From Nitrospirota bacterium (GTDB taxonomy: Bacteria; Nitrospirota; Thermodesulfovibrionia; Thermodesulfovibrionales; UBA6898), in the NCBI GenBank assembly GCA_016215155.1, contig JACRLQ010000049.1:1-33738 (forward strand): 33,738 nt of DNA, in the 5' to 3' direction. Below, piece after piece: positions 27,266-33,553 of this stretch (position 1 is its first letter; every line of letters begins with the position of its first letter). Under the pieces are notes generated by a model, which was not told the origin of the DNA, did not search any database, and worked only from the letters and a program-made list of their open reading frames with translations. The position numbers and the translations under genes are program-made.

Positions 27266-28579
27266 TCAATCCCTTCCTGTGTCAATTCTTTGCTTTTTTA
27301 AAATCCTGCTTCTTCTTATTCTCACGGTATTGGCGTGCGCCTCAAGGCCCTCGATATCGGCGATCGCCTCGACGACGCCCGAGAGTTTCATGAAGCCTTT
27401 TTTTGTAAAACCTATAATGCTCGAACGTTTGTAGAAGTCATACACCCCAAGAGGTGAGAAAAAGCGTGCCGTGCCGCCGGTAGGCAGCGTGTGGTTAGGT
27501 CCGGCCGCGTAATCTCCCAGGGCCTCCGGCGTCCAGGGCCCAAGGAATACGGCCCCGGCGTTTTCGATCGAAGGAAGGAGCGACATCGGGTCTTCCGTCA
27601 TCACCTCAAGGTGCTCCGGGGCTATCTCGTTTGACAGGGCGACAGCGCTCCCGATGTCTTTTGTTATGATAACCGCGCCGTAATTGTCGAGAGACTTCCC
27701 CGCGATCTTCTTCCTTACGAGTCCGGAGAGCTGTTTTTCAAGTTCTGTGGCAACACTGTCGGCAAGCCGCCTCGACGGTGTGATCAAAACAGAGGACGCA
27801 AGCTCGTCATGTTCAGCCTGGCTCAGAAGGTCTGCCGCCACGAATGCCGCGTTGGCTGAACCGTCGGCGATGATAAGTATCTCACTCGGGCCGGCTATCA
27901 TGTCGATATCGACCAGTCCGAACACGGTTTTCTTAGCAGTGGCCACATAGATGTTTCCGGGCCCTACGATCTTATCGACCTTCTTTACGGACTCGGTCCC
28001 GTAAGCCATGGCGCCTATCGACTGCGCCCCGCCCATCGCATAGACCTCAGTGATTCCCAGCATCTTCGCCGCGGCCATCACGTACGGGTTTAACTGTCCG
28101 TCGGACGACGGGACGCACATCGCGATTTCCTTCACCCCCGCGACCTGGGCCGGGATGACGTTCATAAGAACCGTCGAGGGATACGCGGCCTTGCCTCCGG
28201 GGACATAGACCCCGACCCTTTTGATCGGCCTTATCGCCTGTCCCAGTATCGTCTCGCTTTCCGTGAAGGTCCAGGATTTTTCGGCCTGCATCTCATGGAA
28301 CCTTCTTATGCGTTTTGAGGAGACCTCAAGTGCCCGGACGATGGCCGGGTCAGCCTTGTTCGCGGCCTTTGATATCTCCGAAGGGGTCACGCGGAGTTTC
28401 GCGGCCTTTTTGTAATCGAATTTACGGGTATATTTAAGTACTGCACTGTCGCCGTTTTTGGCGACGTCGAGCAGTATGGCCTTGACGGTCTTTTCTATTG
28501 CGTCACTGATGCACGCGCCGCGCTGCCTGAGCAGGTCGAGAAATGCGCCGGTTTCTTTTTTGTTCTTTAGCTGTCTCAT
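27266..28579 (-). CDS. hisD: Histidinol dehydrogenase
   Basis: A 437-residue zinc enzyme performing the last two oxidations of histidine synthesis. Family landmarks: [72 protein letters not shown] and the catalytic Glu-His in [11 protein letters not shown]; also [18 protein letters not shown]. The ATG at 28579 is chosen; the frame continues 12 codons upstream, but that extension is not family-like and reads into the intergenic region. hisG follows directly, suggesting a small hisD-hisG operon separated from other his genes. Confidence 0.95.
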
Positions 28580-28772
28580 GACCTTAATTCTAAAGCTAAC
28601 AAGGCAATTATGCAAGATGTATTGCGATAATAAACGCGCGCATATTTACAAACCTTGTGTGCCGGGAGCATACCCGGAAGATATGTGTAGCAGTGAACTT
28701 TATGATATTATGTCTATCAGGCCATTAACCGGCTCTTCAGTATGAATTTATTCAAGGTCAGGGGGAACATTT

Positions 28773-29012
28773 ATGAATGGCACAGGAAAGAATTTACCTG
28801 GAATTCAGATCGTTAAAAGGGCGCTTGTCCTGGCAGTGCTCGTAACTATTATTTCCGGGGCAGGGGTTTCCACTGTTCATGCCGTTGAAAAGACATTTGT
28901 GAGTTCAGATTCTTTTCCGATTGCGATACCGGACAATAGTGTCCCGGGTGTCAACTCGACGCTCAACGTGCTTCCAGGCAAGTGCACCAAAATCATGGAT
29001 GTCAAGGTCTGA
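28773..29012 (+). CDS. N-terminal part of a secreted P-domain protein, ending at an in-frame TGA
   Basis: Codons 1-79 of a frame that continues to 31316. It begins with AGGGGG nine bases upstream of ATG and encodes a signal peptide (VLVLAVLVTIISGAG-like core, cleavage after VHA near residue 37). The first half of a proprotein-convertase P-domain follows (SDSFPIAIPDNSVPG, CTKIMDVKV). The TGA at 29010-29012 interrupts the domain mid-strand; the next codons VKSTHSRVGDLKFTVTHNDTG continue the same domain without a frameshift. Alone this fragment cannot fold into a P-domain. Either the gene is a nonsense pseudogene or the TGA is read through; selC lies downstream. See the downstream part and the finding. 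Confidence 0.7.
   Translation: MNGTGKNLPGIQIVKRALVLAVLVTIISGAGVSTVHAVEKTFVSSDSFPIAIPDNSVPGVNSTLNVLPGKCTKIMDVKV
29010..29012 (+). other. In-frame TGA (premature stop or recoded codon)
   Basis: The aligned position in P-domain 2 of the same protein is Ala: IMDLNVAVQATHTWVGDL against IMDVKV-TGA-VKSTHSRVGDL. A hairpin CGGTGA/TCACCG with an 8-nt loop lies at 29036-29055, about 30 nt after the TGA. That distance suits a bacterial SECIS, but the loop lacks a G in its first two bases and the residue is not a Cys position, so selenocysteine insertion is doubtful. Confidence 0.6.
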
Positions 29013-31316
29013 GTCAAGTCAACGCATTCCCGGGTCGGTGATCTGAAATTCACCGTTACTCATAATGATACCGGCAGCAATGCGGTGCTCATTGACCGAC
29101 CGGGCGTTCCGGCGACGACATGGGGTTGCAGCAGGGCCAATATCGATGCGGTCCTTGACGACGCAGCCCCATCTCCGGCCGAGGGACAGTGTTCAGTAGA
29201 CCTGTACGCCGCGATAAACGGGACGTTCAGCCCTAATACCCCCCTGTCTGTCTTTGACAATGAAAATGCGGCAGGGACCTGGACCCTGACCTCGGCGGAC
29301 CTTTCAGGTGATTATGCCGGACAGCTTGACGGCTGGGGCCTCATTATCGCGTGTGCGGATGTGAATGAAGTGAATGTTGTTGAGCCGGAGCCTGTTTCCC
29401 AGGGCCTGATGGGAATGCCCTATGGGACCGCGCAGTTTGGGCCGGTATATGCCCCGGTAGATATCAAAAAATATTTCTACCTTCCGTCGGGCAGTGTTGA
29501 CGCTTCAAACCTGCTGGGATGCAATGCCTGGCCGGCCGGGACCTTCACCGGTATGGCCGCAGTGATCAAGCGCGGGACCTGTGCCTTTGTCACAAAGGTG
29601 AAAAATGCGCAGGATGCCGGGGCCGCGGCCGTTGTCGTGTGCAACGCCGAATCTGGAGGAGATGAACTGATGAATATGGGAGGGGCTGATTCGACGATCA
29701 TTATCCCGTCAGTGTTTATCGGCAATACCAACGGCAACGGGCTGGTCAGCTGGTATGGTACGAACGGTCCGTCGTCCAGGCTGCAGATCAGCTATGCGGG
29801 CTATCCTCCAACAGTAACTATAAGCCAGGCTACCGCAATCACGAATACTGCTGCAACCTTAAACGCGGGCGTCAACGCGAATGGACCGGACACAGTGGTT
29901 AGCTTTCAGTATGGGACAGACATTACTTATGGGACTACGGTGGCTGCGCTGCCGGGGACCGTCTCAGGAGGGAGTCCGACTGCCGTGAGCGCCGGCATAT
30001 CAGGCCTCGCCCCTGATACCCTGTATCACTATCGTGCTGTTGCGACGAGTTTCTATGCAACTACGTACGGCCCTGACACCATGTTCATGACCAATGGCAC
30101 CTATTCCAGCACGGATGCCTTCCCTGTGGCCATTCCGGACAATACTCCTGCAGGCGTTACGTCGACACTTGTAATCCCGGCAGATGCCTGCACTTCGATC
30201 ATGGATCTGAATGTTGCTGTACAGGCGACACACACCTGGGTCGGCGATCTTATATTCACACTGACGCATAATGAAACGGGGACGAGCGCGGTGATCATAG
30301 ACCGCCCCGGGACCGTCGGTGGTGGGTTTGGTTGCACCTTGAACGATATCAATGCCACGCTGGATGATGAGGCGGCCTCACCGGTCGAGGAACAGTGCTC
30401 GGGGACCCCTGCGATCAGCGGCACCTTCAGACCGAATAACCCGCTTTCGGTATTCGACGGCGAGAATGCCGCCGGCACCTGGACTCTCAGGGCAGTGGAT
30501 GCATTTAACGGAGACACCGGACATATCACCGGATGGGGCCTTAATCCTGCCTGTGGGAACCGTCTCGACGTGGCGGTCAACACGGGTTCGGGTTCCGGGA
30601 CGGTCACGAGTACTCCGGCCGGCATCAGTTGCGGCTCGACCTGTACCGCTGTATTCCCCCGATATGCTTATGTCAGCCTTGACGCGGCACCCTCTGCGGA
30701 TTCGTATTTGTCCGGATGGACCGGAGTATGCGCCGGTTACGGCGCGCAGTGTCCGGTGACCATGAGTGTACAGCGATCGACCACCGCAGTTTTTGAAGCT
30801 GTCGCTGACTTCACTTATACGATGGACCCGGTATCAGGTAATGCACCGGTTACGGTCAGCTTTGCCGGATCGGCAGCCCCGGGGACAACGGCCTGGTCCT
30901 GGGATTTCGGAGACGGTCAATACAGTTCAGTACAGAATCCTGTCCATAACTTCAGCACCGCCTCGGTATGGCCGGTGACCCTGACCGTAACAAAAGACGG
31001 CTCACCCTTCAGCATAACGAAGAATGTTACAACGAATGCCTGCGGCGACACTTATCCTCAGGGGATACTGGGAACGGGTTATTTCCCGACGGTACAGGCC
31101 GCATACAACAGCGCATTATCCGGAGATGCGATCCTGATCCAGGCTAAGGATATAGATATCGCCGGCACCCTCACGCTCAACAGACCGGTACTGGTGACGC
31201 TGGAGGGCGGCTATAACTGCGGGTTTTCGTCGAACCTTTTCTTTACAACGCTGTTGAACAGCGCTGTTGTAATAAGCGGCGACGCCGTGACTTTCGAAAA
31301 CATAGCGATCCATTAG
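29013..31316 (+). CDS. Main part of secreted multidomain protein (P-domain, PA, Fn3-like, P-domain, PKD), downstream of in-frame TGA
   Basis: In frame with the preceding fragment; total 847 codons if the TGA is read. Order by combined residue number: rest of P-domain 1 (to about 195), PA domain about 243-330 (GTCAFVTKVKNAQDAGAAAVVVCNAE), an Fn3-like region (AATLNAGVNANGPDTVVSFQYGT) to about 440, P-domain 2 about 443-600 (THTWVGDLIFTLTHNETGTS; FDGENAAGTWTL), an InlB-B-like GSGTVTSTPAGISCGSTC repeat, a PKD domain about 677-756 (WSWDFGDGQYSS), and a C-terminal segment resembling the start of a beta-helix. No protease catalytic domain is present; it looks like a surface or secreted adhesion-type protein. 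A GTG at 29085 is the first start after the TGA but has no Shine-Dalgarno and would lack a signal peptide. Confidence 0.75.
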   Translation, partial: VKSTHSRVGDLKFTVTHNDTGSNAVLIDRPGVPATTWGCSRANIDAVLDDAAPSPAEGQCSVDLYAAINGTFSPNTPLSVFDNENAAGTWTLTSADLSGDYAGQLDGWGLIIACADVNEVNVVEPEPVSQGLMGMPYGTAQFGPVYAPVDIKKYFYLPSGSVDASNLLGCNAWPAGTFTGMAAVIKRGTCAFVTKVKNAQDAGAAAVVVCNAESGGDELMNMGGADSTIIIPSVFIGNTNGNGLVSWYGTNGPSSRLQISYAGYPPTVTISQATAITNTAATLNAGVNANGPDTVVSFQYGTDITYGTTVAALPGTVSGGSPTAVSAGISGLAPDTLYHYRAVATSFYATTYGPDTMFMTNGTYSSTDAFPVAIPDNTPAGVTSTLVIPADACTSIMDLNVAVQATHTWVGDLIFTLTHNETGTSAVIIDRPGTVGGGFGCTLNDINATLDDEAASPVEEQCSGTPAISGTFRPNNPLSVFDGENAAGTWTLRAVDAFNGDTGHITGWGLNPACGNRLDVAVNTGSGSGTVTSTPAGISCGSTCTAVFPRYAYVSLDAAPSADSYLSGWTGVCAGYGAQCPVTMSVQRSTTAVFEAVADFTYTMDPVSGNAPVTVSFAGSAAPGTTAWSWDFGDGQYSSVQNPVHNFSTASVWPVTLTVTKDGSPFSITKNVTTNACGDTYPQGILGTGYFPTVQAAYNSALSGDAILIQAKDIDIAGTLTLNRPVLVTLEGGYNCGFSSNLFFTTLLNSAVVISGDAVTFENIAIH

Positions 31317-31324
31317 AAGACGGT

Positions 31325-31347
31325 AGGTGCCGGGGTACTTTGCACCT
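31325..31347. terminator. Weak hairpin between the P-domain gene and selC
   Basis: AGGTGC (31325-31330) and GCACCT (31342-31347) are perfect 6-bp arms with an 11-nt loop just after the TAG stop. There is no T-run, so termination is uncertain; it may instead mark processing upstream of the tRNA. Confidence 0.3.
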
Positions 31348-31377
31348 GCGGCGCAAAAGAAGTCGAATATCATCATT

Positions 31378-31475
31378 GGGAGTGCATAGGGTTCTGGTGT
31401 CCCTCCCGGCCTTCAAAGCCGGTGTTTCCTGCCAAAAGCGGGAAGGGTGGGTTCGATTCCCACACGCTCCCGCCA
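31378..31475 (+). tRNA. selC: tRNA-Sec (UCA anticodon), selenocysteine tRNA
   Basis: A 98-nt tRNA with CCA encoded (31473-31475). The anticodon stem CCGGC/GCCGG (31406-31410 and 31418-31422) carries the loop CTTCAAA with anticodon TCA at 31413-31415, identical in loop to known bacterial tRNA-Sec. The acceptor has eight positions (GGGAGTGC against ACGCTCCC, last pair C-A mismatched), the T-arm is GTGGG-TTCGATT-CCCAC, and there is a long variable arm with TTCCTGC/GCGGGAA (31426-31444). The 8+5 geometry and the long variable arm are diagnostic. The organism therefore decodes UGA as selenocysteine; selA, selB and selD are not in the window. tRNA-Sec genes are well-known integration targets, and island-like DNA follows. 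Confidence 0.95.
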
Positions 31476-31542
31476 GATTCCTTTATTATTTATAAAAAAG
31501 AGGCTTTTTTTATAGATTAGGGAAATCTCCACGGAGGTGCGT

Positions 31543-31752
31543 ATGCAGGAATTTACCGTGATTATTGAACAGGATGAAGAGGGATACTTCATCGCAGACG
31601 TTCCTTCACTGAAGGGATGCCACACGCAGGCAAAGTCCCTTGACACCCTCATGAAAAGGGTCAGGGAGGCCATTGAGCTTTGCCTGGAGGTTAAGGGGGA
31701 TAAACGGCGGCCAAGGACTCACCTCGTAGGTGTTCAGAAAATTGCGGTATGA
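31543..31752 (+). CDS. hicB: HicB-family antitoxin
   Basis: A 69-residue protein matching the partial RNase H-like fold of HicB: FTVIIEQDEEGYFIADVPSLKGCHTQAKSLDTLMKRVREAIELCLE. HicB neutralises the HicA mRNA interferase. GGAGGT lies just upstream of the ATG at 31543, which I prefer to the GTG at 31537 that overlaps it. The C-terminal DNA-binding part found in longer HicBs is absent. The stop overlaps the next frame as ATGA, exactly where a hicA start would be expected in hicB-hicA order, but that frame departs from HicA after about ten residues. This is therefore probably an orphaned antitoxin. Confidence 0.8.
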   Translation: MQEFTVIIEQDEEGYFIADVPSLKGCHTQAKSLDTLMKRVREAIELCLEVKGDKRRPRTHLVGVQKIAV

Positions 31753-31958
31753 GCATTTTTCCCTCTTTATCCGGAAGAAGGCATTCTGTTGCGTCTTTGG
31801 CAGCATCTAGTGGTGTGTCGATAGCGATTATCAAGGAAGTTTTAGGGCATACTGATATAAGGACAACGCAAAAGTATTCTCATGTTGACGTTCTTTCGCA
31901 GCCGCAGGTTTTTGAGGTGCAGGGCAAGAGGAGTATTCGAAAGAAATCTTATGTTTGA
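31749..31958 (+). pseudogene. Chimeric remnant: HicA-like start fused to tyrosine-recombinase (integrase) C-terminus
   Basis: A 69-residue frame whose first residues MSIFPSLSGR resemble the start of HicA toxins (M-S-x-L-P-x-L-S-G). From residue 11 it reads RHSVASLAASSGVSIAIIKEV-LGHTDIRTTQKYSHV, the C-terminal end of a tyrosine recombinase, including the conserved R-H, LGH and the catalytic-Tyr motif (T-T-x-x-Y). The rest of the recombinase, including the first catalytic Arg and Lys, is missing, so it cannot be an active integrase. The likely origin is a deletion joining hicA to an integrase 3' end, leaving a scar of the element once integrated near selC. Confidence 0.7.
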
Positions 31959-32005: not shown

Positions 32006-33034
32006 ATGGCTAAAGAGCAAAGACATAAAATTATCAAAGAGTTGGAAGAAGCTAGGGGGAATACTCTTCTAATTTCGTATGTAACTAGTACGAGATCGAA
32101 TCTGGAAGTGCAGATAGAAATTGATAGTGTTAGAAAGATATACGAGCATCTTATAGTTAACAAAGCCCAAAAGAAGAATACCAAAATAGACCTCTTTATA
32201 AACAGTAATGGTGGCAATGGAATAGTTCCTTGGCGACTTATTACTTTATTGCGCGAGTATTGCAAACATATTACTGTCCTTATTCCGCATAGAGCTTTTA
32301 GTGCTGCTACATTATTGGCTCTAGGTGCTGATGAAATCTTGATGCATCCTATGGGAATGCTGGGACCAGTCGACCCAACGGTAACTAATCCTTTTAATCC
32401 GACAGACACGAGAACTAATCAGACTCTTGGCATCAGCGTCGAAGACGTGAGCTCATATATCACCTTGATAAAGGATGATGTGGGTATTCGCCATGAAGAT
32501 GAACTTATTCAGGCTTTCAATCTTTTAGCTTCGAAAGTTCATCCGTTGGCATTAGGCAACGTTAAGCGATTTATGGTTCAGTCCAGAATGATGGCCAAGA
32601 AACTTCTGGAGTTACATATGAGCAAGGCAAGTGATGAACATAAGATTGGTGAAATAGTCGAAAATCTGACATCTAAGCTTTATTATCATGGCCACCCAAT
32701 TAATAGGCAGGAAGCTTGTGATTTAGGACTTAAGATCGGGAAAATAGATGAGAAAGTGGAAGATATCATGTGGAGGCTTTACTGCGAATATGAAAATGAA
32801 ATGTTGCTTGATGCTCCGTTCAGACCTGTAGATGATTTTGTTCAGGCCAATCCATCATTGGCAGCTAACGCAACGGCTTCTCTTCGGTTGTCTCCATGTA
32901 AGGGGGTTTTTATCGAAAGTTTGGGAAGGACTGATGTCTTTTCGATAGATTTTGAAGTCTTCGGGCAGAGACTTGCCAATCTGTCTTATCAAACTAATAT
33001 ATCCACATTAAAGCAGGGGTGGGGAACAGAATAG
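32006..33034 (+). CDS. SDH-type serine protease (ClpP/SppA fold, PF01972-like)
   Basis: A 342-residue cytoplasmic protein of the serine dehydrogenase proteinase group. The ClpP/crotonase core shows IDLFINSNGGNGIVPWRLI (oxyanion GG), then HRAFSAATLLALGADEILM with the presumed nucleophile S99, then HPMGMLGPVDP. The C-terminal part is helical, and no signal peptide or membrane segment is seen at the N-terminus. Homologues are scattered in bacteria and archaea, often in accessory regions; their physiological targets are poorly known. The gene is clearly AT-richer than the housekeeping genes to the left and follows an integrase remnant, so horizontal acquisition is likely. It has a near-consensus promoter and no Shine-Dalgarno. 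Confidence 0.8.
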   Translation: MAKEQRHKIIKELEEARGNTLLISYVTSTRSNLEVQIEIDSVRKIYEHLIVNKAQKKNTKIDLFINSNGGNGIVPWRLITLLREYCKHITVLIPHRAFSAATLLALGADEILMHPMGMLGPVDPTVTNPFNPTDTRTNQTLGISVEDVSSYITLIKDDVGIRHEDELIQAFNLLASKVHPLALGNVKRFMVQSRMMAKKLLELHMSKASDEHKIGEIVENLTSKLYYHGHPINRQEACDLGLKIGKIDEKVEDIMWRLYCEYENEMLLDAPFRPVDDFVQANPSLAANATASLRLSPCKGVFIESLGRTDVFSIDFEVFGQRLANLSYQTNISTLKQGWGTE

Positions 33035-33249: not shown

Positions 33250-33316
33250 ATGGTTTTGTTGATATCAGAGCTTGGCTGATTAAAGCTTCAATAAGAAATT
33301 GTGGTCGGGTCTTTGT

Positions 33317-33455
33317 AGCCTGTTGAAAAAGTGTTTTCAGATGTTTTCGCGTCATTCCCGTGCAGACGGGAATCCATTGTTTTTAAGGAGTTTGGATACC
33401 CGCCTTCGCGAGTATGACGGCTCTAACTGACAAAACAAGAGTTTTTCAACAGCCT
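33317..33455. mobile_element. MITE-like element with 14-bp terminal inverted repeats
   Basis: The ends AGCCTGTTGAAAAA (33317-33330) and TTTTTCAACAGCCT (33442-33455) are reverse complements at 13 of 14 positions. The interior has CGTCATTCCCG-TGCAGA-CGGGAATCC and CCGCCTTCGCGAG, typical of dispersed CGTCATTCCCG repeats. At about 139 bp with no coding capacity it is a non-autonomous insertion or repeat composite. Outside it, 33250-33553 holds no recognisable gene. Confidence 0.65.
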
Positions 33456-33553
33456 GTTTGATCTTGAATTATCAATAATGCATTGCTGTCCTTCCGCATC
33501 TCCTGAGTGATAACCGTATTTACATTGCCGTGTCGCTATGCTAATTTAAATTC

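Follow-up and report, generated by a model that had tools for sequence, protein, structure and literature searches.

The window, by which we mean the whole 33,738-nt stretch of Nitrospirota bacterium DNA that we analyzed (contig JACRLQ010000049.1), contains hisD, a long frame interrupted by a single TGA, and selC, the gene for the selenocysteine (Sec) tRNA (Table 1). Translation of the frame (28773-31316, + strand) gave 79 codons, a TGA at codon 80 (29010-29012), 767 open codons and a TAG stop (31314-31316) – a single lesion in 847 codons and no frameshift. A preliminary description of this DNA had reported the frame as open except for that TGA, with selC 61 nt beyond its stop codon on the same strand; its coordinates and content proved accurate, and both ARAGORN and Rfam place tRNA-Sec there.

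Table 1. Features of the hisD-selC locus (positions are those of the window)
Feature	Position	Strand	Remarks
hisD	27266-28615	-	ancestral upstream neighbor of selC in G003, G001 and G004; TIGR00069, 6.6e-167
5′ part of broken gene, 79 codons	28773-29009	+	N-terminal hydrophobic segment, signal peptide-like (by eye); first third of P-domain 1 (P-domain alignment)
In-frame TGA, codon 80	29010-29012	+	sole internal stop among the family matches listed
Remainder of frame, 767 codons	29013-31316	+	rest of P-domain 1, PA domain, second P-domain, PKD domain, C-terminal module, TAG stop
Hairpin of 6 bp, loop TCTGAAAT	29036-29055	+	chance level; not convincing as SECIS
Gap of 61 nt	31317-31377	+	probably contains selC's own promoter; resembles G022 and G004 selC upstream regions
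selC, tRNA-Sec, anticodon TCA	31378-31475	+	ARAGORN; Rfam RF01852 (31378-31471)

Because PA, P-proprotein and PKD domains are recognized 3′ of the TGA (PF02225, 1.6e-15; PF01483, 8.2e-13; PF18911, 1.4e-10), the 767-codon open frame is real coding sequence and not a product of chance. Searched alone, the part before the TGA gave no Pfam domain match. When the TGA was read as X, however, the first of the protein's P-domains showed 55% identity to the second with the frame unchanged, and the best matches elsewhere to the piece flanking the TGA likewise covered both of its sides – bearing out the earlier statement that P-domain homology runs through the TGA without a frameshift. As in a selenoprotein gene, then, an in-frame TGA has coding sequence and homology on either side.

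One reading of this arrangement is that the UGA is decoded as Sec by the product of the adjacent selC together with SelB, yielding a full-length selenoprotein. The genome is equipped for this: it encodes SelB (368 bits, above the curated cut-off), tRNA-Sec and known selenoproteins. We identified three molybdopterin oxidoreductases of the FdhA formate dehydrogenase type (L165, L169 and L170) in which UGA stands for Sec, each with one TGA in the motif R-x-UGA-H-S-x-T-V (DHCARL-U-HSPTV, EHQARI-U-HSATV and ENQARI-U-HSSTV). After the TGA, the three genes share C-A-C-T-C and, at about position 20, a core that reads CGGTCTGG, CGGCTCTGG or CGGACTGG.

The preliminary description had also pointed to a hairpin at SECIS-like distance from the candidate TGA as a link to Sec. 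A hairpin of six base pairs does exist, at chance level: the folding energy of the 51-nt stretch from the TGA onward is -10 kcal/mol, against -9.8 (sd 2.5) for shuffled sequences (z = -0.09), and 89 of 200 shuffles do no worse. We also applied a loose in-house SECIS rule, its limits taken from general knowledge of bacterial SECIS models, that asks for a stem of at least 4 pairs, a loop of 3-14 nt that begins 16-37 nt past the UGA and a G at loop position 1 or 2. Under this rule the three genuine FdhA sites have 8-pair stems against 6 pairs (with a GGT loop) for the candidate, and since 21% of 6141 codon positions in genes of the window are also followed by stems of at least 6 pairs, the candidate hairpin is no evidence for recoding. 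The loop of its minimum-energy hairpin begins TC, and the C-G-G-x-CTG-type core of the genome's genuine SECIS elements is absent after the candidate TGA. Bacterial SECIS elements have been described as stem-loops lying immediately downstream, with a small apical loop and a conserved G (PMC1088965), a description that the candidate does not fit.

We aligned the interrupted P-domain with nine relatives: the second P-domain of the window's gene, three domains of a paralogue in the same genome, two P-domains from G007, one from G002 and two from G004. The paralogue (on contig C60) is an intact 1175-aa protein with three P-domains. Residues in the TGA column are Ala, Ser, Phe, Leu, Gly, Gly, Ser, Asn and Arg; Asn and Arg belong to the G004 sequences, which are more distant and align with less certainty. 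A Cys homologue at the Sec position is a usual criterion for predicting bacterial selenoproteins (PMC1088965), and neither Cys nor Sec stands there in any of the nine relatives compared. The context of the TGA (MDVKV-UGA-VKSTH) contains no redox motif, and the column as a whole suggests a variable position with no hint of redox activity. The missing motif and the Ala of the second P-domain had both been pointed out beforehand, and the alignment agrees.

Also in favor of Sec is the position of selC, 61 nt downstream. One tRNA-Sec serves every selenoprotein gene of a cell wherever that gene is located, so a place beside selC carries no weight for recoding. Set against the genome's own SECIS elements and the residues of the relatives, decoding of this UGA as Sec appears very improbable.

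We observed that in three congeners (G003, G001 and G004) hisD and selC are direct, divergently transcribed neighbors with a short gap between them. The hisD flank of the window matches these congeners up to ~28617 (78% identity to G003, 69% to G001 and 71% to G004) and the selC flank matches from ~31366-31378 onward; the P-domain gene sits between the two flanks, and no DNA match to it was found in 30 relatives. In the absence of an orthologue, the choice between gain and loss comes from parsimony over the three congeners, whose hisD-selC gaps lack the gene, and this favors a lineage-specific insertion gained here and not lost elsewhere. A gain in this lineage would make the adjacency to selC recent and unshared. 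The same three empty gaps run counter to the proposal that the adjacency marks a functional link.

Searches for an orthologue of the P-domain gene found none in 176 genomes of the order, a sample of 396 of the phylum and a scan of 84,980 species. Together with searches of 26 other genomes of the family and of IMG/VR viral contigs, they returned only paralogues and shared modules (PKD, PA and P-domain). An ordinary non-Cys sense codon in orthologues had been named in advance as an argument against recoding; paralogues and distant homologues do carry such codons, a true orthologue not having been found. Outside the candidate gene, none of the family matches listed from its own and related genomes has an internal TGA or other stop. 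Paralogous and distant P-domain frames are thus intact in the relatives, as expected if the candidate is a pseudogene.

The surroundings of selC have features of a mobile island. In G003, the 3′ end of selC (~27-30 nt; window 31450-31479) is directly repeated ~8 kb downstream of selC (L176, contig C3, 2911-2937 and 10915-10941), and a tyrosine integrase of 427 aa lies between the two copies. A near-identical copy of the selC 3′ end is present in the window's genome on contig C22 (L175, 5394-5423), and contigs C33 and C22 may adjoin. Just 3′ of selC, the window contains a C-terminal remnant of a tyrosine integrase (LGHTDIRTTQKYSHVDVLSQ; 31803-31958) that scores below the Pfam cut-off (E 3.9e-5), and G004 has a comparable remnant close to its selC (L178, 5231-5446). 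A small HicB-like antitoxin gene directly after selC (31543-31752) and a gene for a ClpP-like, SDH-type serine proteinase (PF01972, 5.4e-19; 32006-33034) are probably island cargo. By eye, we also noted an inverted-repeat-like stretch (CCTGTTGAAAAAGTGTTTTC ... GAGTTTTTCAACAGCC, 33310-33470) similar to those that small non-autonomous mobile elements carry. selC is an island attachment site in enterobacteria, and from these repeats and integrases it looks like one in this genus too.

We aligned the flanks of the insertion locally to the selC upstream regions of relatives and compared the scores with those of 1000 shuffles. The score of the 61 nt before selC was reached by 1 of 1000 shuffles for G022 and 5 of 1000 for G004; for the nearest congener, G003, it was reached by 206 of 1000 and is not above chance. 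A simple sigma-70 scan gave nothing above chance near selC. Since the right flank resembles the G022 and G004 regions better than the left flank fits G003 (a weak fit, 20 of 1000 shuffles), the 61-nt gap probably still contains selC's own promoter, though the chance-level fit to G003 keeps this from being firm. The same comparison makes it less likely that the ancestral selC promoter now serves the inserted gene.

These flanks bear on a regulatory role for the UGA, in which read-through by tRNA-Sec would relieve the Rho-dependent polarity that a long untranslated frame brings about and thereby feed back on selC transcription. Gene and selC lie on one strand, Rho could be drawn to the 2.3 kb of RNA left untranslated beyond the TGA, and the weak alignment of the left flank leaves room for co-transcription. 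Read-through by tRNA-Sec, however, needs SelB and a SECIS, and we found no convincing SECIS; a promoter of its own in front of selC is probable, and the arrangement is present in one genome only. We regard such feedback as no likelier than decoding as Sec. Its fullest form – a cis-acting, selenium-sensing leader gene in which low-frequency UGA read-through couples translation to transcription, so that selC expression tracks selenium status – seems more improbable still. Every available computational test speaks against both readings, and the suggestion of a regulatory or recoded UGA that senses selenium finds no support in the variable non-Cys residues, the chance-level hairpin and the lineage-specific adjacency.

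The state of the frame itself points to a recent loss. Only 2.9% of the possible single substitutions create a stop in frame, so a lone stop with no other lesion suggests few neutral changes so far and fits a mutation of recent date. Beyond the TGA, codon adaptation is 0.63-0.67 per 600-nt block with no decay along the frame, compared with 0.59 before it; most neighboring genes (0.58-0.83) lie above the broken gene, as expected for an accessory gene. With a single lesion, no frameshift and even codon adaptation, the more mundane possibility raised at the outset – a pseudogene whose nonsense mutation is very fresh – gains support. Against it, an otherwise perfect frame is also expected of a recoded gene or of a sequencing error.

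A sequencing or strain artefact is the main alternative: the draft assembly would owe its TGA to an error of base calling or consensus building, or to a minority strain variant, and the gene would be unbroken in the population itself. That the assembly is a draft of 101 contigs, that the frame is otherwise perfect and that no independent copy of the gene turned up in the collections searched would all suit an artefact. The TGA site, however, has no homopolymer and no positive sign of error, and assemblies in general err less often by substitutions than by indels. We consider an artefact unlikely, though far likelier than any form of recoding.

We therefore favor, with a probability of roughly 85%, an accessory gene for a secreted or cell-surface protein that arrived as a lineage-specific insertion and was recently inactivated by one nonsense mutation. 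A gene for a multidomain surface protein (P-domain, PA, P-domain, PKD) would have been inserted between hisD and selC, and the mutation at codon 80, presumably recent and fixed, would have inactivated it afterwards. Ribosomes would stop at the TGA and release a 79-residue fragment comprising the signal peptide and the beginning of P-domain 1. The 61-nt gap most likely supplies selC with a promoter of its own, and selC would have no functional connection to the TGA.

This is chiefly a negative result: an in-frame TGA adjoining selC is no evidence of recoding. Most of the case is settled at little cost by setting the locus beside its congeners and beside the genuine SECIS elements of the same genome. 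Were recoding true, the gene would encode a selenoprotein with a non-redox Sec, in a fold for which Sec is not known, or form part of a new regulatory circuit for selC.

Among known systems, the three FdhA formate dehydrogenases resemble the candidate in having one in-frame TGA within a long frame, in a genome with SelB and selC. They differ in that their U sits in the conserved R-x-U-H-S-x-T-V with a SECIS core directly after it, whereas the candidate lacks both and its relatives lack Cys. Closer in kind are bacterial genes for accessory secreted proteins that a nonsense mutation has turned into ordinary pseudogenes; they share with it an early single stop, a lineage-specific gene, an intact remainder and an intact paralogue. 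From these the candidate differs in nothing of substance; it is its chance position by selC that makes the TGA look suggestive.
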